Source: a virus
Length of the DNA stretch: 26,455 nucleotides
IMG/VR virus record: IMGVR_UViG_3300042861_001224
Coordinates: 1-26,455 of that record
Reading direction: 5' to 3' (one strand)
A program made the translations under genes and the position numbers. The notes below the pieces were generated by a model. It was not told the DNA's origin. It ran no database searches and saw only the letters and a list, made by a program, of their open reading frames with translations. The first letter of the stretch is position 1. Each line of letters starts with the position of its first letter. Shown here one piece after another: positions 3,499-26,127 of the stretch.

Positions 3499-4001
3499 TA
3501 CCAATCCTCAATCACAGCGGACGTGCCGCCATAACGCCGGGCCGAGCTTTCGAACTGCACCAGGTCATCGGATATCACTGGATCGGTGGGTAACGGCGGC
3601 TCGGGTGGGATCAAACTCAGTTTGCCAGTCGCATGGTTATTTAAGACATCAAGCACGCCTTTGTAGGCTTTTTCGACATCGTCGGTCATGCGTTCAGCGC
3701 CTTGCAGGTAATACAGCGCCACAGTAGACGACAAACGCGCCACTAGCGTGGTTTGCAGCGTATCCGGCAATCCATAGCTCAATAACAGCGCATCCGCATC
3801 GCCCAGCGCTTTATCAATCGCATCCAGCGCCAGAGTCAGCGCGGCTTGCTCGTCGGGGGTGTAGCCGGTCAGCGCACCGCCATCAATAGCCACCCGTAAC
3901 GACTCATCCGGCGGCATGGCTACATCAGCCGGTACCGCCAGTTGCATCAACCGGCGGGCATTGCTGCGGGCTAACAGATCGGCGCGGGTGGCGAATGGCA
4001 T
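3498..4001 (-). CDS. J: DUF1320 / Mu gp36 (J-like) head-tail joining protein
   Basis: The product has 167 residues. It has the N-terminal ATRADLLAR pattern, a helical middle where ALDAIDKALGDADALLLSYGLP is followed by VALYYL, and a C-terminal FESSARRYGG motif diagnostic of the DUF1320 (Mu gp36/J) family. These proteins form part of the neck connecting the filled head to the tail. The start overlaps the upstream stop (TAATG) and the stop overlaps the next start, so the gene is embedded in the coupled neck-tail operon. It is slightly longer than usual, with an Ala/Pro-rich insert near residues 20-45. Confidence 0.88.
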   Translation of the reverse strand: MPFATRADLLARSNARRLMQLAVPADVAMPPDESLRVAIDGGALTGYTPDEQAALTLALDAIDKALGDADALLLSYGLPDTLQTTLVARLSSTVALYYLQGAERMTDDVEKAYKGVLDVLNNHATGKLSLIPPEPPLPTDPVISDDLVQFESSARRYGGTSAVIEDW

Positions 4002-4585
4002 TAGTCAGCCGCCGCTTGATTTTTGATTTGATTCCAGGCTTGGTCGCGTTCTGCGGCCAGCACTTTGAAACCGGTCAATGCGGAAACAGCATCCAGATTT
4101 GGGCTACCATTCGTTAACCAATGATCGACATTGTTCTGGTCGAGTTGTGCAATAGCCGATTTGATGGCGTCTAGACGAGAATCCATAGCGGATTTGTCGC
4201 CGCCTCCATCGACTCCAGCAGTAGCGAGGGCCTCGGACGCGTCCGCCTCCGGCCCTCTTTCGGTTGGTTTTTCTTCCCCCTCAGCAGCGGACACCGTGCC
4301 TGCGTGCTCACTATCTCCCTGTGCGGTGCCCGCCGAGTCCTGTTCAACCTTAACGTCGCTCTCGGGTGGGTTATTCTGTTTTTGTGCCGTTGGGCTGGTG
4401 GCGTACACCTCAACCAACACGGTCGGCGTGTCGCTTACTTCCAAATACGGGTCTTCATTCAACGCGGCCAGCGTGGCTTCATCCACATTGTCCAACTCGG
4501 TCCAGTCGCGGTTAAACCGCAAACCAGCACGGTCACGTTTTTGTAAATCGGTGCGTAGGTTTACGCGGCAATACAGTTTTGGCAT
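4001..4585 (-). CDS. FluMu gp35/HI1506-like structural protein
   Basis: The 194-residue protein has three parts. The N-terminal ~65 residues (YCRVNLRTDLQKRDRAGLRFNRDW) resemble the FluMu N-terminal domain of Mu-like prophages. The centre is a low-complexity Glu/Ala/Asp-rich linker. The C-terminal segment DHWLTNGSPNLDAVSALTGF resembles the HI1506-type C-terminal motif. It sits between capsid gene T and J, as in Mu and FluMu prophages. ATG at 4585 has GGAG upstream; an in-frame TTG four codons earlier is less likely. A minor head or decoration role is probable but not shown. Confidence 0.75.
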   Translation of the reverse strand: MPKLYCRVNLRTDLQKRDRAGLRFNRDWTELDNVDEATLAALNEDPYLEVSDTPTVLVEVYATSPTAQKQNNPPESDVKVEQDSAGTAQGDSEHAGTVSAAEGEEKPTERGPEADASEALATAGVDGGGDKSAMDSRLDAIKSAIAQLDQNNVDHWLTNGSPNLDAVSALTGFKVLAAERDQAWNQIKNQAAAD

Positions 4586-4608
4586 GTCAGTCTCCAATCA
4601 GGTTGTCT

Positions 4609-4631
4609 CCCTCTCCCTTGATGGGAGAGGG
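4609..4631. repeat. CCCTCTCCC palindromic repeat between T and gp35-like genes
   Basis: CCCTCTCCC and GGGAGAGGG form a perfect 9-bp stem with a 5-base TTGAT loop, followed on the plus strand by GCCGGGGTGAGGG. The motif resembles short interspersed palindromes common in proteobacterial intergenic DNA. On the minus-strand mRNA it forms a stable hairpin just after the capsid gene and could protect or partly terminate that transcript. No U-tract follows, so it is not called a terminator. Confidence 0.65.
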
Positions 4632-4659
4632 CCGGGGTGAGGGTGTTACAAATCAGGCC

Positions 4660-5553
4660 TTATTGCACCCAAGGCGTGACCAGCAAATCCACCCGTTTGT
4701 AGTTGGTATTGCTCTCACCGTTGCCGATCATCTCTTTAGCCAGCAAAGTTTCAGCCGCCACGCGGTTAGTCGGTCCGCACACTAACAAACTTGGGTTAGT
4801 CCCCAGCTTGATACCGCCGTCGCCGGTCTGGCTGATCATGCGGTTATACAAATCGTCAAAGTTGGTAGCGTTCAAAGTGGCTTTGGATCCATAGCAACAC
4901 TGCCAAAACCCAAACGCCGCCGCACCGCGCCACCTGCCACCAAACGAATACACGTCGTTTTCGAAAACGTTGGTGGTGGCTGCCGTAGTTTGGCTTTCCA
5001 ATTGCGCCGGCACTCGTTCTTGTAGAATCAGCGCAGGCGCATTGGGGGCGAATAGATACCAGGGCGCACCCGCACCGGCTTGAATGTTGGAGGTAGCCAC
5101 CGCCGTACCGGTGCCATCGGCATTGGGATAAACCGGGTGATCGGTGTCAAAAAAGAACTGGTCGTCGTAACAGTTGGTAGACCAACCCAACAACAGCATG
5201 CCAAAGATCAATTCGTCTTTTAAGCGCTGTGCCGCCGCACCATGGCCACGCGCCACATTGGCGTAATGTCCAAAATCGTCGTCTTCCACGTCCGTGCGTT
5301 GCACGTCGATAGTCGCTTCGTACTTGTCATTGACGACGGTGTAGGCTTTTTCAGCAATCGCTTTATGCAAACGAGAGCCGACCCATTTACGGAAGGACGG
5401 CCATTGCGTTAACCAGGCGTAGGTGCTGCTTTTGCTGGATGACTTCATCAGCTCGGCAATGCGTGCCCAGTTGCTCGGGGTATCAATCAAGCCTTTGTCA
5501 AAATTGGCCTGCAACGTGGTTTTAAGCGCGTCGATTTGGGATTGTGTCAGCAT
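4660..5553 (-). CDS. T: Mu gpT-like major capsid protein
   Basis: The ~297-residue protein matches Mu gpT (305 residues), the major head subunit that builds the icosahedral shell. Characteristic stretches are the N-terminal LTQSQIDALKTTLQANF, WPSFRKWVGSRL near residue 50, YEATIDVQRTDVEDDDFGHY, FFDTDHPVYP, and the C-terminal PSLLVCGPTNRVAAETLLAKE. It lies directly downstream of the protease/scaffold gene, as in Mu. Two ATGs are adjacent; 5553 is preferred because GGAG is then 6 bases away, but 5556 is possible. Confidence 0.95.
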   Translation of the reverse strand: MLTQSQIDALKTTLQANFDKGLIDTPSNWARIAELMKSSSKSSTYAWLTQWPSFRKWVGSRLHKAIAEKAYTVVNDKYEATIDVQRTDVEDDDFGHYANVARGHGAAAQRLKDELIFGMLLLGWSTNCYDDQFFFDTDHPVYPNADGTGTAVATSNIQAGAGAPWYLFAPNAPALILQERVPAQLESQTTAATTNVFENDVYSFGGRWRGAAAFGFWQCCYGSKATLNATNFDDLYNRMISQTGDGGIKLGTNPSLLVCGPTNRVAAETLLAKEMIGNGESNTNYKRVDLLVTPWVQ

Positions 5554-13035: not shown

Positions 13036-14140
13036 CCTCGCCTCCTTTTTTATTGCTGCTACCTTTCTTACGGCCTGGCCCTGGACGTTCAGCCGAGCGC
13101 TCAATGTCGCGCTTGTTTTTGGCACGGGTAAAGTTAATGTCGATCATGGTTACACTGTCTTGCAAACGCGCCTTTTCGTCGTCTCGCAACAGGTAATTGG
13201 CATTGGTTTTGATTGGCAATAAATCGCCAAGATCGTCTTTAATACGGGCATACAGCAATTCGGCGCGCGCCAGTAAACCGCCCGCCGCAATGGCGATAGC
13301 ATGCAGTTGCAATTCGCGCTCTTGATGGCTGGTTTCGGAATCGTTGATCACTTCGCCGTAGATCACATCCAGCGCATCGACGTTGACGCGACTGGCATAC
13401 TCCAACGCCGCCGCTTCATGGCGTACTTCCACCGTGCGGGCGTTGTAGATACCCTCACCGGGTTGTTTGGCTTTGGTCAGGTTGTTGTGTTCGCGGCGCA
13501 GGGTTTCATGCTGTTGCCTCAGTATTTTGTACTCGGCTTCCTGTTGTCGGATGGTATCGCGCAAGTCCCGGACGCTCAGCGATTTCAGCTCGTTATCAGG
13601 ATCTTCCAACAGATCCTGAACTACCTCAGGATCGGCAGCAGCAAGCGCCCTGAGCTTTGTTTTGCTGAGCATAAATACTTGTTTGCGCTTTTCGGGATCA
13701 AGGCTGGTGTAAAATTTTGCGGTCAGCATCAAGTCAGACGCCGTTTGCTGCGTTACGCCATGCGCCTTCAGCAGTTTCAAAAACTCGCCGCGCTCACACT
13801 CGGCCTTGGCTTTCAGCATCAAATAGCCCGCTTCCAGCACTAACGCCGCCGCCGTGTTTTGTGCCGCCACCGCCCGCTCAACACAAGCCGCCACCGAACC
13901 CGCCAACGATATACCCAACCCAGCAGCAACCGACTCATCTGCAGAATCAAGCGACCCCGTTGAAAGTACGGAACGTTCCGTACTTTGGTTAATGGGCGAA
14001 ATGTCAGAACGTTCCGCACTTTGAATTATTGGCGTCATCGCCTGCATATCGGCATCGATATTGACCAGCTCACCGTCAATAAATGTGCGGACGGGGGGTA
14101 GTTCGTCGTCCATATCCAATTCAAAATCTATTTCAGACAT
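13028..14140 (-). CDS. DUF3102-like early protein with coiled coil
   Basis: The 370-residue protein has an acidic N-terminus, a 12-residue tandem repeat near residues 35-60 (QS[AT]ERS), and a DUF3102-like helical domain around 80-180 (AALVLEAGYLMLKAKAECERGEFLKLLKAHGV, then a helix-turn-helix-like QTASDLMLTAKFY). A coiled coil follows at ~210-245 (EAEYKILRQQHETLRREHNNL), and the C-terminus is highly basic (ERPGPGRKKGSSNKKGG). DUF3102 proteins occur in phages and plasmids and are thought to bind DNA. ATG at 14140 has GGAG at 6 bases and overlaps the previous stop; upstream in-frame ATGs lie inside that gene. Confidence 0.65.
   Translation of the reverse strand: MSEIDFELDMDDELPPVRTFIDGELVNIDADMQAMTPIIQSAERSDISPINQSTERSVLSTGSLDSADESVAAGLGISLAGSVAACVERAVAAQNTAAALVLEAGYLMLKAKAECERGEFLKLLKAHGVTQQTASDLMLTAKFYTSLDPEKRKQVFMLSKTKLRALAAADPEVVQDLLEDPDNELKSLSVRDLRDTIRQQEAEYKILRQQHETLRREHNNLTKAKQPGEGIYNARTVEVRHEAAALEYASRVNVDALDVIYGEVINDSETSHQERELQLHAIAIAAGGLLARAELLYARIKDDLGDLLPIKTNANYLLRDDEKARLQDSVTMIDINFTRAKNKRDIERSAERPGPGRKKGSSNKKGGEDV
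13963..13986. repeat. 24-bp perfect palindrome inside the DUF3102-like gene, with a degenerate second copy
   Basis: The half-site AAAGTACGGAAC is followed directly by its exact complement. A second copy centred at 14010/14011 keeps the right half at 11 of 12 positions (GTTCCGCACTTT) but has lost the left. The centres are 36 bases apart, matching a 12-residue protein repeat, so coding duplication explains the spacing; the perfect symmetry of one copy is not explained by that alone. Confidence 0.7.
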
Positions 14141-14510
14141 GACGAACTCCCGTGATGACAAATCCAACGTCGACACCAATTTCATACGCTGCCTTCAAGA
14201 ATTTAGCGGTCGGCGTGGTAGTGTTTAATTCCCACATCATGACTGCTCTCTTTGTTACGCCGATTTTTCTACCGAGCTTTGTCTGGCTATATCCAAGCCT
14301 GTTTCGCTCTTCTTTTAACCTGTTTCCGATTGATGAAATATCCCGGCGAGAACGCTTTTTTTCTTGCTGTGACGTTAACAACTTTGGCGATTCAAGAACC
14401 GTTGAGAGCATTTGTAATGCAGATACTGGTTGCACTTTGGCGACAGGCATCACTGTTATTCCGCCGATGTCAATGCCACGATCCTTAATTATGGTGTCAT
14501 TAATGTTCAT
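14133..14510 (-). CDS. XRE-family helix-turn-helix regulator
   Basis: The 125-residue protein has an N-terminal ~60-residue segment of unknown role and a C-terminal XRE/Cro-type helix-turn-helix (IGNRLKEERNRLGYSQTKLGRKIGVTKRAVMMWELNTTTPTAKFLKAA, about residues 62-110). It occupies the place of a Ner/Cro-like early regulator upstream of the transposase. AGGA lies 8 bases before the ATG at 14510; longer in-frame starts would overlap the preceding gene. The stop overlaps the DUF3102-like start. Confidence 0.8.
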   Translation of the reverse strand: MNINDTIIKDRGIDIGGITVMPVAKVQPVSALQMLSTVLESPKLLTSQQEKKRSRRDISSIGNRLKEERNRLGYSQTKLGRKIGVTKRAVMMWELNTTTPTAKFLKAAYEIGVDVGFVITGVRHV

Positions 14511-14544
14511 GTATAATTTCCTATGCAGTTGTGGTAATTGGGCG

Positions 14545-14733
14545 TTATTGCGCTTTTGGAACAGGCTTAACGCCCAATGCTTTGGCGGCTTTGAATGATT
14601 TCCCGCGTAACGCTGGGGAGCGACCATTGAGAATTCGATACACCAAGTCACGCGGGTATCCATTCTGGTCTGCCCATTGGCCTGGGCATTCGCCGTTATC
14701 GGTAAACTGTTGTTTTCGTTCAGCAGGGGTCAT
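14545..14733 (-). CDS. BcepMu gp16-family DNA-binding protein
   Basis: The 62-residue protein matches the small phage-associated family typified by BcepMu gp16: TPAERKQQFTDNG, then WADQNGYPRDLVYRILNGRSPALRGKSFKAAKALGVK. The pattern is a compact helix-turn-helix in which WADxNGYPxxLVYRxLNG forms the recognition part. It is the first early gene, divergent from the repressor, where a Ner/Cro-like role is usual. AAGGAG lies 6 bases upstream of the ATG. Confidence 0.8.
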   Translation of the reverse strand: MTPAERKQQFTDNGECPGQWADQNGYPRDLVYRILNGRSPALRGKSFKAAKALGVKPVPKAQ

Positions 14734-14763: not shown

Positions 14764-14797
14764 GGTATTTAAAATACCGTGATGTAATTAAAATACT
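14764..14797. promoter_or_regulatory. Two operator-like dyads between repressor and early operon
   Basis: GGTATTT-A-AAATACC (14764-14778) is a perfect 15-base odd palindrome. About 20 bases away (centre near 14791) a related imperfect dyad GTAATTAAAATAC repeats the TTAAAATAC half. One covers the expected early transcription start and the other the -10 box. Spacing of about two helical turns suits cooperative dimers of the CI-like repressor; identity of the binder is inferred. Confidence 0.65.
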
Positions 14798-14824: not shown

Positions 14825-15202
14825 GTGAATTTATTTGACGAAGCCATGCTGAGGCTCAAACAACAACTAAAAGTTACGGAAGATAAGGAAGCGGCAGATT
14901 TTTTAGGGCTATCGCCAAGAGCTTTAGCTGGGAGAAAACAACGGGAAAGCTTTCCGACCAAAGAAGTCTTTGCGCTGGCTGCGCAACGTCCAGAGCTAGG
15001 TCTTGATCCTGATTGGATTGTGACTGGCACAACGATCAGGACAGAGATTGACGATAGACAAGTAGCGTATTTAGTACAGTGCTATCAAATCATGAGTCCG
15101 CATGATAGAAAGGCCATGCTAAAGATTGCTGGCGCGCTATCGGATGTCGCCAACTTACCTAGCGAAGAAATCACCAGAAGGCTAAGCAACTACCAAACTT
15201 AA
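14825..15202 (+). CDS. CI-like phage repressor, short form
   Basis: The 125-residue protein carries a phage CI-repressor helix-turn-helix (residues ~15-65: DKEAADFLGLSPRALAGRKQRESFPTKEVFALA, then LDPDWIVTG) and a short C-terminal helical part, but no S24 autocleavage domain. It should therefore not be induced by RecA-driven self-cleavage. It starts at a GTG preceded by AAGGGGG, divergent from the early operon across two dyad operators, the standard place for the lysogeny repressor. Three further genes follow within 10 bases or with overlap, so they are likely expressed from the lysogen. Confidence 0.82.
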   Translation: MNLFDEAMLRLKQQLKVTEDKEAADFLGLSPRALAGRKQRESFPTKEVFALAAQRPELGLDPDWIVTGTTIRTEIDDRQVAYLVQCYQIMSPHDRKAMLKIAGALSDVANLPSEEITRRLSNYQT

Positions 15203-15212
15203 GGATAAAAGG

Positions 15213-15551
15213 ATGAAACAAGAGAAACAAAGCAAAGAAAAAAGCCTGCCTTTAGCAATCGGCTTAAATGTTGTGCTGCCCGGATTGGGCTATATGTACA
15301 TGGGAAAATGGATAATCGGTATCGCAGGCTGTTTGCTAATTATGGCGATTTCTTGGAATGCCTTTCTTTCAGGCGGCGATGTTTTAACAACTTGGCTGAT
15401 TGTCAATCTCATCATGGCTATCGACATGTTGATTCTGATGAATAAAAACAAAGCAAAAATAATCGCTAACGAAATGAAGAAATGTCCAGCTTGCGCAGAG
15501 CTTATTAAAAAAGAAGCCGTGGTTTGCCGATTCTGTAATCGAGAAGTATGA
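15213..15551 (+). CDS. Membrane protein with TM2-like hairpin and C-terminal zinc ribbon
   Basis: The 112-residue protein has two or three hydrophobic segments (LPLAIGLNVVLPGLGYMYMG, WIIGIAGCLLIMAI, WLIVNLIMAIDMLILM) with a TM2-like PGLGYxYxGK turn. A cytoplasmic zinc ribbon CPAC-x10-CRFC follows at residues ~91-108. Function is unknown. It starts 10 bases after the repressor stop and its stop overlaps the nuclease start by four bases (ATGA), so it is in the lysogenically expressed operon. A membrane sensor or superinfection-exclusion role would be speculation. Confidence 0.75.
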   Translation: MKQEKQSKEKSLPLAIGLNVVLPGLGYMYMGKWIIGIAGCLLIMAISWNAFLSGGDVLTTWLIVNLIMAIDMLILMNKNKAKIIANEMKKCPACAELIKKEAVVCRFCNREV

Positions 15552-16036
15552 AGCTAAAAATGAAAAGGATTTTCCTAATTTTGCTTTTAATATCCGCAAT
15601 AACCTATGCAGGCGAATGGACTGGAACGGTTATCGGCATCACTGACGGCGATACAGCCACAGTGCTGAATGCTGAAAACCAATCGATTAAAGTTCGCCTG
15701 GTCGAAATCGATGCGCCTGAATCCAAGCAAGCATTCGGCAATCGAGCCAAACAATCACTAGCTGAGCTGTGTTTTAAAAAGCCGGTGGTCGTGATGGATA
15801 AAGGCCATGACCGCTATAAGCGCACTTTGGGTCGTTTGATTTGTGATGGTGTTGACGCCAATGCCGAACAAGTTAAACGCGGCATGGCCTGGGCATATCG
15901 GAAATATCTTAAAGACTCTTCAATCCTAGATTTGGAAACCCTGGCCAAAAATGGCCAAGTAGGCCTATGGGCTGACATCAATCCAACCCCGCCTTGGGAA
16001 TTTAGGCACCCTCACAAACCTTTAAATCAGGAGTAA
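15548..16036 (+). CDS. Secreted staphylococcal-nuclease-like (SNase/thermonuclease) protein
   Basis: The 162-residue protein begins with a signal peptide (KRIFLILLLISAITYAGEW, cleavage near residue 21) and then a full SNase-like fold. All catalytic counterparts of S. aureus nuclease are visible: Asp35 in TDGDT, Arg50, Asp55 and Glu58 in RLVEIDAPE, and Arg92 in YKRTLGR. It should be an active Ca-dependent nuclease outside the cytoplasm (periplasm or medium). It is coupled to the membrane zinc-ribbon gene and followed 3 bases later by a small secreted Cys-rich gene. It is not part of the core Mu gene set, so it looks like lysogenic-conversion cargo. Confidence 0.9.
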   Translation: MKLKMKRIFLILLLISAITYAGEWTGTVIGITDGDTATVLNAENQSIKVRLVEIDAPESKQAFGNRAKQSLAELCFKKPVVVMDKGHDRYKRTLGRLICDGVDANAEQVKRGMAWAYRKYLKDSSILDLETLAKNGQVGLWADINPTPPWEFRHPHKPLNQE

Positions 16037-16039
16037 ACC

Positions 16040-16225
16040 ATGCAAGTCATTTTCAAAGCTCTAGTCACTGCAATCATGGTAATGGTCTGTATTTCATCGA
16101 CAGCAGAAGCCAAAGGCAAACAGCCTTGTTCCGGCAAAAAAGGCGGTATCTCGCATTGTTCTGGCGGAAAATTTGTATGTAACGATGGCTCGATAAGCAA
16201 GTCTAAGAAGACTTGCTCAAAATGA
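16040..16225 (+). CDS. Small secreted cysteine-rich protein
   Basis: The 61-residue product has a signal peptide ending near residue 24 (VCISSTAEA) and a basic mature part of ~37 residues with four Cys in [23 protein letters not shown] and a final TCSK, which could form two disulfides. It lies 3 bases after the nuclease gene with CAGGAG upstream of the ATG, so the two are made together and exported together. A partner, inhibitor or stabiliser of the nuclease is possible; nothing in the sequence decides. Confidence 0.75.
16196..16217. terminator. Hairpin at the end of the repressor-nuclease operon
   Basis: AGCAAGTCT and AGACTTGCT pair perfectly over 9 bp with a 4-base loop, overlapping the last codons of the Cys-rich gene. 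The operon converges here on the gpG paralogue. No U-run follows the stem directly; an AT-rich ATCTTT/AAAGAT hairpin 35 bases on could complete termination. Confidence 0.4.
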
Positions 16226-16272: not shown

Positions 16273-16866
16273 TTATTTAGCTCTGGCACGTTTTAAGACC
16301 CGCGTCAGATGATCTGTTGCGATGGTTTCAACCAAGTCGCGGTCGGCATCTGGGAAGCCAATCAACTCACGCTTGGGTAATCCAGGATGATTGACACGTT
16401 TTGTCACAATTCCTGCAAATGCTAAGGCTTGACGTTGACGCGGCGTAATCAGATGCGGAGCTGTTCCGAATTGGTGAAACCCGGCCAGTTTACTTTCGCG
16501 AGACCCATCGAACCATAGCCGCAACTCATCGCCATTTACCTGATAGGTTAACGAGCTCAACATGTCGCCTGTATCGCGTAATATGCCACCGGCGCGCACC
16601 CTTCTGACGGTGGCTAAGCTCATTGACTTATTTTTTCGGAATGATTCTTTTTGTTTCTTCCAAACCTTTGCACCAATGGTCAATGGCGATAAGGTTTTCC
16701 ATGGTGAGCCATCGGGGGCGAGATTCGCTTTATGTCGTTTCCTATTGGCGCGTAATAGCATTTCTCCGATGCTATCCAACATCTTGTCCGGTTGCTCAAT
16801 CTCGCCTCGTGCGGCACGTAATGTATAAAGCAAATGACTGGTGTCAAATTCAAGTTCGAATTGCAT
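16273..16866 (-). CDS. Mu gpG-like virion morphogenesis protein, paralogue 1
   Basis: The 197-residue protein matches the phage virion morphogenesis (Mu gpG) family: IGEMLLRANRKRHKANLAPDGSPW near residues 30-53, LRDTGDMLSSLTYQV, GFHQFGT, then ITPRQRQALAF and HPGLPKRELIGFPDADRDLV. It is related to the protein at 25660 but has a ~40-residue extra segment in the middle, so it is a diverged paralogue rather than a recent copy. Unlike other gpG genes it lies in the leftward SSB operon, 154 bases downstream of ssb. AGGAG lies 7 bases before the ATG. Confidence 0.85.
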   Translation of the reverse strand: MQFELEFDTSHLLYTLRAARGEIEQPDKMLDSIGEMLLRANRKRHKANLAPDGSPWKTLSPLTIGAKVWKKQKESFRKNKSMSLATVRRVRAGGILRDTGDMLSSLTYQVNGDELRLWFDGSRESKLAGFHQFGTAPHLITPRQRQALAFAGIVTKRVNHPGLPKRELIGFPDADRDLVETIATDHLTRVLKRARAK

Positions 16867-17020: not shown

Positions 17021-17419
17021 TTAATATGGCACATCATCGTCATAATCATCACCCACCGGCCCACTAGCCGCCGTTTGCCCGGCGCCGTTACTTTTCCCAG
17101 TCAACATATGCATTTCACTTACGATGATTTCAGTGGTATAGCGTTCCACGCCGTCTCTATCCTGCCATTTACGCGTCTTCAAACGGCCTTCAACGTAGAT
17201 TTGATGACCCTTTTTAACGTATTCGATCAGCACTTTCGCCAGGCCGGAAAAGAACACTACCCGGTGCCATTCTGTATCCTCTTTGCGTTCTCCGCTTTCG
17301 CGATCTTTCCAGCGTCGAGTCGTCGCCAGGGTGATGCTGGCCGTGGGTGTGCCGTCAGGTAAGTAGCGTACAACAGGATCATCACCCAGGCGGCCGATGA
17401 GTTGGGCTTTGTTTAGCAT
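17021..17419 (-). CDS. ssb: Single-stranded DNA-binding protein
   Basis: The 132-residue protein is a clear bacterial-type SSB: MLNKAQLIGRLGDDPVVRYLPDG at the start, EDTEWHRVVFFSGLAKVLIEYVKKG and IYVEGRLKTRKWQDRDG in the OB-fold, and an acidic tip DDDVPY close to the canonical DDDIPF that recruits repair and replication proteins. The Gly-rich linker is short. ATG at 17419 has AAGGA upstream and overlaps the stop of the 46-residue membrane gene. Mu itself depends on host SSB, so a phage copy is notable; it might bias recruitment of host replication factors after transposition. Confidence 0.93.
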   Translation of the reverse strand: MLNKAQLIGRLGDDPVVRYLPDGTPTASITLATTRRWKDRESGERKEDTEWHRVVFFSGLAKVLIEYVKKGHQIYVEGRLKTRKWQDRDGVERYTTEIIVSEMHMLTGKSNGAGQTAASGPVGDDYDDDVPY

Positions 17420-17553
17420 GAGACATCCTTGCGGGTAAACACCCGACGTTTTAAAAAGGGTATTAAGCGATGGCCGTCCAGGATGATAAAAAGCACTAAG
17501 CCCACTATCAATGCACTGCCACAAAACAGCGGCCTATCTAAAAACTCTCTCAT
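17414..17553 (-). CDS. 46-residue single-pass membrane peptide
   Basis: An ATG at 17553 overlapping the previous stop (ATGA), with AGGGA 7 bases upstream, opens a 46-codon frame. Its product begins MREFLDRPLF, has a membrane segment (CGSALIVGLVLFIILDG) and ends basic (FLKRRVFTRKDVSC). The stop overlaps the ssb start. Tight overlap on both sides and a good ribosome site argue that it is real despite its size. No function is known. Confidence 0.7.
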
Positions 17554-25550: not shown

Positions 25551-25580
25551 AAAACGCGGCCTTTTGAGGGGTCGCGTTTT
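25551..25580 (+). terminator. Hairpin terminator after gpF
   Basis: Directly after the gpF stop, AAAACGCG and CGCGTTTT form a perfect 8-bp stem extended by partial pairing of GCC with GGT, ending in TTTT. The A-run and T-run flanks are those of a bidirectional intrinsic terminator. It would lower expression of gpG2, which begins 80 bases further on. Confidence 0.6.
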
Positions 25581-25659
25581 GCGGATCGGATACTGTGCAG
25601 TAGCGCGCATGGCGCAGTCTGACCGATTCACACCTTTATTATATAGGCGACGGCGGATT

Positions 25660-26127
25660 ATGCAATTTGAAATCGAGTTTGAGACGCGGCATTTGATCAA
25701 TATGCTGGAGATAGCACGTCAGGAAATTGCTAAACCGGACGAAATTTTAGGATCTATTGGTGAGTCGTTATACCGGGCTAACTCAAAGCGTCATAATGCT
25801 GGTAAAGATCCCGATGGAAAAGAGTGGAAAGAATTGTCAGGGGTAACACTGGCAAAAGGTGATCGTAAAGGAGGACCGCTCAAACGTACTGGCAGGATGT
25901 TGGCAAGCCTTAATTATGCGGTGACTGACGACACGTTGATTTTAGGGTTCGATGAGCCAAGGGTGGATGGTCGTTTGCCAGGGTTTCATCAGCGAGGGCA
26001 TGACAAGACTGATCGTCATCCTGGACTACCTAAAAGGGAATTATTAGGGTTTCCGCAGGCCGATCGTGATTTAGTTGAGCATGTGACTGTTGATCATTTA
26101 ACGCGTATTTTAAAGCGTGTTCGATGA
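25660..26127 (+). CDS. G: Mu gpG-like virion morphogenesis protein, paralogue 2
   Basis: The 155-residue protein matches Mu gpG (156 residues), a late protein needed for virion morphogenesis. Signatures are IGESLYRANSKRHNAGKDPDGKEW (residues ~31-54), LKRTGRMLASLNYAV, GFHQRGHDK and HPGLPKRELLGFPQADRDLVEHV. The ATG at 25660 is supported by alignment with paralogue 1 (both begin MQFE[LI]EF); the frame is open further upstream without a better start. It follows gpF, the Mu order, but is separated by a hairpin terminator. In Mu gene I would come next; here noncoding DNA and the prophage end follow. Confidence 0.9.
   Translation: MQFEIEFETRHLINMLEIARQEIAKPDEILGSIGESLYRANSKRHNAGKDPDGKEWKELSGVTLAKGDRKGGPLKRTGRMLASLNYAVTDDTLILGFDEPRVDGRLPGFHQRGHDKTDRHPGLPKRELLGFPQADRDLVEHVTVDHLTRILKRVR

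Follow-up and report, generated by a model that had tools for sequence, protein, structure and literature searches.

The DNA analysed here (the window) is a linear fragment of 26,455 bases from an IMG/VR viral record and derives from a transposable phage of the KS10/TJ1-like type: gene order is the same in the window, Curvibacter phage TJ1 and Burkholderia phage KS10, the transposases are 36-39% identical across this comparison, and MuA/MuB-type transposition genes are present. Early transposition and tail genes lie on one strand, and the repressor, an accessory slot and the late head genes on the opposite strand. An inverted or misassembled prophage, suggested at first by head and tail genes that differ in strand, could be ruled out, as TJ1 and KS10 are organised alike. 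Two genes for Mu gpG-like virion morphogenesis proteins are present in opposite orientation (16273-16866, minus strand; 25564-26127, plus strand), and the minus-strand copy is conserved in a sister prophage (L210, 13038-13565). An open-ended minus-strand ORF (1-1137) resembles, by eye, an SGNH/GDSL hydrolase (GDSI...GIND) and is possibly a tail-fibre enzyme. Since close relatives of the nuclease described below are found in Methylococcales genomes, and since the sister prophage (G165/L210) resides in a genome from that order, the order of Methylobacter, the host is probably a methanotroph of the Methylococcales.

The cassette studied here comprises four plus-strand ORFs at 14825-16225, encoding a CI-type repressor, a small zinc-ribbon membrane protein (ZnTM), a secreted nuclease of the thermonuclease family (SNase) and a YdcA-like Cys-rich miniprotein, and occupies a variable accessory slot that separates the repressor from the lysis genes. 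The exact ORF coordinates bear out the gene order and the spacing of 10, -4 and 3 bases given in the original prediction. A phage SSB gene (17021-17524, minus strand) has the cassette on one side and the lysis genes on the other. Divergent from the repressor is the first early gene (14545..14733, minus strand), which encodes a Ner/Cox-like small HTH protein (phrog_925 HTH DNA-binding protein, E 2.4e-16). The intergenic region between the two contains a 13-bp direct repeat whose near-palindromic copies are candidate operator 1, GTATTTAAAATAC (14765..14777), and candidate operator 2, GTAATTAAAATAC (14784..14796), 19 bp from operator 1. When up to two mismatches were allowed, this motif matched 8 times in the window versus 0.93 expected, a count that includes both strands of the two palindromes, and exact matches occurred at operators 1 and 2 only. 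The gene overlaps suggest a single transcript starting at CI; a scan of the plus strand of the cassette for sigma70-like consensus sites, which is a weak test, found none. The assignment of the four genes to one repressor-led operon is well supported.

The repressor gene (14825-15202) has a GTG start after AGGGGG and encodes 125 residues that match PF07022 (Phage_CI_repr) at 25.4 bits versus a cut-off of 22. As the protein is short and no S24 domain was found in it, and as the beginning of the early gene region encodes a further HTH protein (14133-14663, minus strand), CI is one candidate for the protein that holds lysogeny.

ZnTM (15213-15551, 112 residues) is predicted from hydropathy to be a membrane protein with a C-terminal zinc ribbon. 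The ribbon part (15483..15536) shows the pattern C91-x2-C94-x10-C105-x2-C108, a match to Zn_ribbon_3 that is under Pfam's cut-off (E 2.3e-4) and a KKCPxCAELIKKEA motif common to other phage zinc-ribbon membrane proteins, so that the earlier description of this gene product holds. Homologues with 86% (G165/L210) and 53% (L091) amino acid identity are both encoded directly 3' of a repressor, and in the sister prophage the repressor gene overlaps that of ZnTM. Comparison with the sister copy gave a dN of 0.07 and a dS of 0.98 (dN/dS about 0.07). Identity with Imm_superinfect (PF14373) was rejected because no match appeared at E 0.1; a TM2-like character is a reading by eye only, and the AlphaFold model is too poor for use (pLDDT 62.7). 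Against PADLOC-DB, the C-terminal part alone matched LmuB (E 0.0089), reflecting a generic domain. At other loci (L093-L104), zinc-ribbon membrane proteins that carry the ribbon motif, and that resemble ZnTM mainly in the ribbon, are encoded immediately before the tape measure gene, the slot that YdcA uses in Acinetobacter phages.

The start of the SNase gene (15548-16036, 162 residues) overlaps the ZnTM stop codon (ATGA). Its product matches PF00565 over the whole profile (1-107 of 107, E 3.8e-22), and D35, R50, D55, E58 and R92 align with D21, R35, D40, E43 and R87 of Staphylococcus aureus nuclease, the PDB chains in this alignment being engineered variants, one of them mutated at position 43. 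The catalytic set is thus complete, as had been claimed, and these positions are invariant across five phage SNases. We predict a signal peptide (15548..15610) that ends in ...LLISAITYA and is followed by GEW, a call made by eye and from hydropathy. The match in PADLOC-DB to C3a212 (SNc+LTD; E 9e-9) again concerns a generic domain. SNases require calcium and act outside the cytoplasm.

The last gene (16040-16225; Shine-Dalgarno sequence AGGAG) encodes 61 residues and belongs to the YdcA family (phrog_6000, E 2.1e-23), with matches to the NCBIfam PRK10040 models under the cut-off. Here too, sequence and hydropathy agree with the earlier call of a signal peptide (16040..16111, predicted to end in ...STAEA before KGK), leaving a mature part of about 37 residues with 4 Cys and 9 Lys. 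The signal peptide accompanies the pattern CSGKKGGxxHC...F.CNDG..S.SKK.C, in which 16 columns are invariant among 14 members of the family. The miniprotein is 61% identical to an Escherichia coli chromosomal protein encoded at the site of ydcA, and the annotation 'YdcA family protein' is attached to some of the copies in E. coli prophages. An NCBIfam beta-lactamase match (E 0.065) was dismissed as signal-peptide noise. Substitutions relative to homologues bear the mark of purifying selection (dN/dS about 0.09-0.17 for the miniprotein; 40/22/97 by codon position for SNase, concentrated at third positions), as they do in ZnTM, which argues that the cassette ORFs are real genes.

We then asked how often such nucleases accompany repressors. 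Across the 80 bacterial loci whose SNases are closest, a phage-type repressor lies upstream, on the same strand and within 2.1 kb, in 10, versus 0, 0 and 1 for the other three repressor positions. The query repressors were picked mostly from repressor-SNase loci themselves (the weakest hit being L124 at E 2e-4), and subtracting the three loci that supplied them leaves 7 versus 1 (binomial P about 4e-4). In viral genomes SNase likewise follows the repressor, directly or one gene later, in TJ1, Mcat8, Mae-JY22 and L009, the Mae-JY22 repressor being read by eye from position and sequence, with no family match. The genes separating repressor and SNase vary; known families among them are Imm_superinfect with a zinc ribbon (L185; Imm_superinfect match E 3.9e-16), putAbiC/AbiP-like (L176) and DUF4124 (L110). 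The first of these loci, from a Rhodoferax MAG (3817-5462), has the order repressor, Imm_superinfect/zinc-ribbon protein, SNase and is apparently an independent version of the window's order; the unit adjoins CII-like and primase-like genes, both recognised by eye. Lysogenic conversion predicts recurrence of this kind, and repressor-linked SNases in unrelated phages and prophages fit it. What began as one odd cassette has thereby become a testable pattern, in which temperate phages of several groups carry a secreted SNase directly behind the repressor, sometimes accompanied by superinfection-immunity or Abi-type membrane proteins.

The same loci bear on two other uses of an exported nuclease. 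It might free nucleotides or phosphate from extracellular DNA, or loosen biofilm, as a general gain in fitness for the lysogen, and the 70 of 80 SNase relatives in which no repressor was detected upstream within about 2 kb are in keeping with such a role; scavenging would leave the recurrent placement beside repressors and exclusion-type genes unexplained, and we consider it improbable. Alternatively, SNase might destroy free DNA before uptake and so shield the prophage from recombinational replacement, with ZnTM being incidental. Moraxella catarrhalis is a naturally competent species, and its prophage Mcat8 encodes an SNase with a signal peptide beside the repressor. Moreover, the dns gene of CJIE1-type Mu-like prophages tracks with non-transformable Campylobacter jejuni and an extracellular DNase halo, and strains with a broken dns can transform (PMC10893306, citing Gaasbeek et al. 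2009). Yet the membrane and Abi-like partners of SNases elsewhere point to phages, and Dns belongs to a nuclease family different from SNase; blocking of transformation is thus possible but doubtful as the main function.

YdcA genes show a one-sided placement as well: a same-strand repressor lies upstream of YdcA in 20 of the 80 viral loci, and in none does it occupy any other position. At least 80% of a cI-YdcA unit is present, within P2-like prophages, in 625 of 5,426 complete E. coli genomes; a group of P2-like loci shares the layout with YdcA 3' of cI, and in one E. coli example (L214, 3404-4180) the order is cI, YdcA, integrase. In Haemophilus phage HP2 (L002, 2510-2692) an unannotated YdcA-like ORF overlaps the cI stop codon and is followed by a gene for a secreted tRNA_anti-like protein. 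Acinetobacter and Moraxella phages carry YdcA among the tail genes instead. At several loci in phages or islands (L020, 5098-5982; L092, 5283-5927; L013, 6383-6901), proteins with a segment that looks BRCT-like by eye adjoin YdcA or a zinc-ribbon membrane protein. Nucleases were also considered as general neighbours of YdcA, which they mostly are not, most copies having no adjoining nuclease.

Within the Methylococcales, YdcA is present in 14 of 201 genomes, and 13 of the 15 hits (L195-L209) form the N-terminal domain of a secreted Endonuclease_NS (DNA/RNA non-specific endonuclease). Three of these 13 fusions are broken or cut off, and PF01223 was scanned in two (E 2.5e-38 and 1.2e-35), the others being assigned by the same sequence pattern. 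One small envelope domain is thus associated with two unrelated families of secreted nucleases, in cis and in trans, and this is the main new clue; together with the one-sided linkage of secreted SNases to repressors, the association of YdcA with nucleases is the strongest result of the analysis. It also bears on the proposal that the Cys-rich protein might inhibit the nuclease. A regulator or inhibitor, guarding for example the envelope or the host DNA, would be in keeping with a gene that adjoins SNase and with the predicted co-secretion of the two products. On the other hand, the YdcA domain forms one polypeptide with a different, otherwise complete, secreted nuclease, which makes a docking or accessory role more likely than inhibition; most YdcA genes lack a nuclease neighbour, a nuclease that is exported requires no inhibitor in the cytoplasm, and we regard inhibition as very improbable.

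A structural hint comes from the Dot/Icm outer-membrane cap, one chain of which (7muc_AN) is the sole match of the YdcA profile in the PDB (E 3e-4, best domain 0.0036). The same chain ranks top in a Foldseek search with the YdcA model (mean pLDDT 70) at a non-significant E of 0.58. It is probably Dis2, as its modelled length of 76-78 residues fits that protein. Dis2 is a two-lobed protein near the outer membrane that is pinned by five disulfides and whose function is not known (PMC8486379). No paper on the function of the YdcA family was found in the literature searched, and the fusion to a secreted nuclease, the pairing with SNase and this weak tie to a structural protein near the outer membrane offer a lead on an uncharacterised family.

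To determine whether the three cargo genes share a history, we compared the cassette with related phages at the nucleotide level. Matching stretches end close to gene boundaries: 15201-15545 pairs with the ZnTM region of G165 (84%), 15614-16223 matches SNase and YdcA of L009 as one block (68%), and 15980-16230 matches L010 (81%), where a 3' remnant of SNase still precedes YdcA. On this basis SNase and YdcA move as a block which ZnTM joined separately. A search of 80 loci with SNase, 80 with YdcA and 201 Methylococcales genomes did not recover the full ZnTM-SNase-YdcA trio, and the co-occurrence search for the three cargo families that had been suggested therefore returned the complete trio from this record only. 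A close ZnTM occurs once among the 201 genomes of the order, without SNase, in the sister prophage; there a different gene follows ZnTM, and then the same minus-strand virion morphogenesis gene as in the window. A joint, co-inherited system of all three proteins, as first envisaged, is not supported, given these separate mosaic histories, and the idea of a lysogenic-conversion cassette survives in the narrower form of a repressor-led unit in an accessory slot with a recurrent repressor-SNase pairing.

The separate blocks also raise the question of whether the three are unrelated conversion genes that share nothing other than a promoter slot. ZnTM and YdcA each occur singly 3' of repressors, and the tail-gene slot, too, can hold YdcA or a zinc-ribbon membrane protein. 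Nevertheless, SNase and YdcA are contiguous in two phages with a remnant of the pair in a third, YdcA is joined to another secreted nuclease, and the Rhodoferax locus has a similar order with a different membrane domain, such that we hold a set of independent morons to be rather doubtful, if a serious contender.

We favour, tentatively and with a little less than even confidence, a lysogenic-conversion operon that would confer an envelope barrier against DNA, with YdcA as the envelope partner of the nuclease. The repressor promoter, open in the lysogen, would drive transcription through the overlapping cassette genes. SNase would be exported and, being Ca2+-dependent, could work nowhere but outside the cytoplasm; there it would cut DNA reaching the envelope, superinfecting phage genomes first and transforming DNA too. 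ZnTM may act in the inner membrane at the DNA entry step, like Imm-type proteins, and the YdcA-like miniprotein could dock or assist the nuclease as an envelope module pinned by disulfides. The Imm_superinfect/zinc-ribbon and AbiP/AbiC-like neighbours of related SNases (L185, L176), along with the precedent of a DNase in Mu-like prophages (PMC10893306), fit a DNA barrier, and on account of the Imm- and Abi-like neighbours we prefer phage exclusion over the blocking of transformation by a small margin. Several observations run counter to the barrier: a free periplasmic nuclease might miss DNA injected via a tail tube, the trio is confined to this record, ZnTM lacks SNase in the sister prophage, ZnTM gives no Imm_superinfect match, 70 of the 80 SNase relatives show no upstream repressor within about 2 kb, nuclease-free YdcA is commoner than YdcA with a nuclease, and some YdcA and ribbon-similar zinc-ribbon membrane proteins are encoded just ahead of the tape measure gene. 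A more specific 'block and shred' mode of exclusion, in which ZnTM stalls DNA at the inner membrane and SNase, held at the envelope by YdcA, destroys it, is in our estimate unlikely. If true, YdcA would be a general envelope-docking module for phage exclusion proteins, one that is encoded 3' of cI in roughly a ninth of complete E. coli genomes. No relevant paper connecting SNase or thermonuclease morons with superinfection was found in the literature searched.

Several known systems resemble parts of the cassette. SNIPE, a nuclease of the membrane, cuts phage DNA as it is injected and unites GIY-YIG and DUF4041 in one protein (PMC13190303). The cassette shares with it the idea of an envelope nuclease directed against incoming phage DNA; unlike the single membrane-bound protein of SNIPE, it pairs an SNase bearing a signal peptide with a separate membrane protein. 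The CJIE1 nuclease is of the Dns/endonuclease I type. With the CJIE1 prophages the window shares a Mu-like, transposable prophage that encodes an exported DNase (export being predicted from the sequence in our case); it differs in enzyme family and in that its nuclease gene belongs to an operon headed by a repressor, which also encodes a membrane protein and a Cys-rich partner. As neither GIY-YIG nor DUF4041 was found in any cassette protein and the enzyme is not of the Dns family, the cassette can at most work like SNIPE or CJIE1 dns. T4 Imm and the Imm_superinfect family (PF14373) are likewise small membrane proteins, and a PF14373 protein with a zinc ribbon stands between repressor and SNase in the Rhodoferax locus, whereas ZnTM itself has no PF14373 match. 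Of the two phages with the same genome organisation, TJ1 has the order repressor, ORF, SNase before its lysis genes but no detectable ZnTM or YdcA near SNase, and in KS10 two different genes fill the slot. Finally, E. coli ydcA/phrog_6000 shares with the miniprotein a signal peptide, four Cys in the same pattern and, in P2-like prophages, a position 3' of cI, whereas the gene in the window lies directly 3' of a secreted nuclease.
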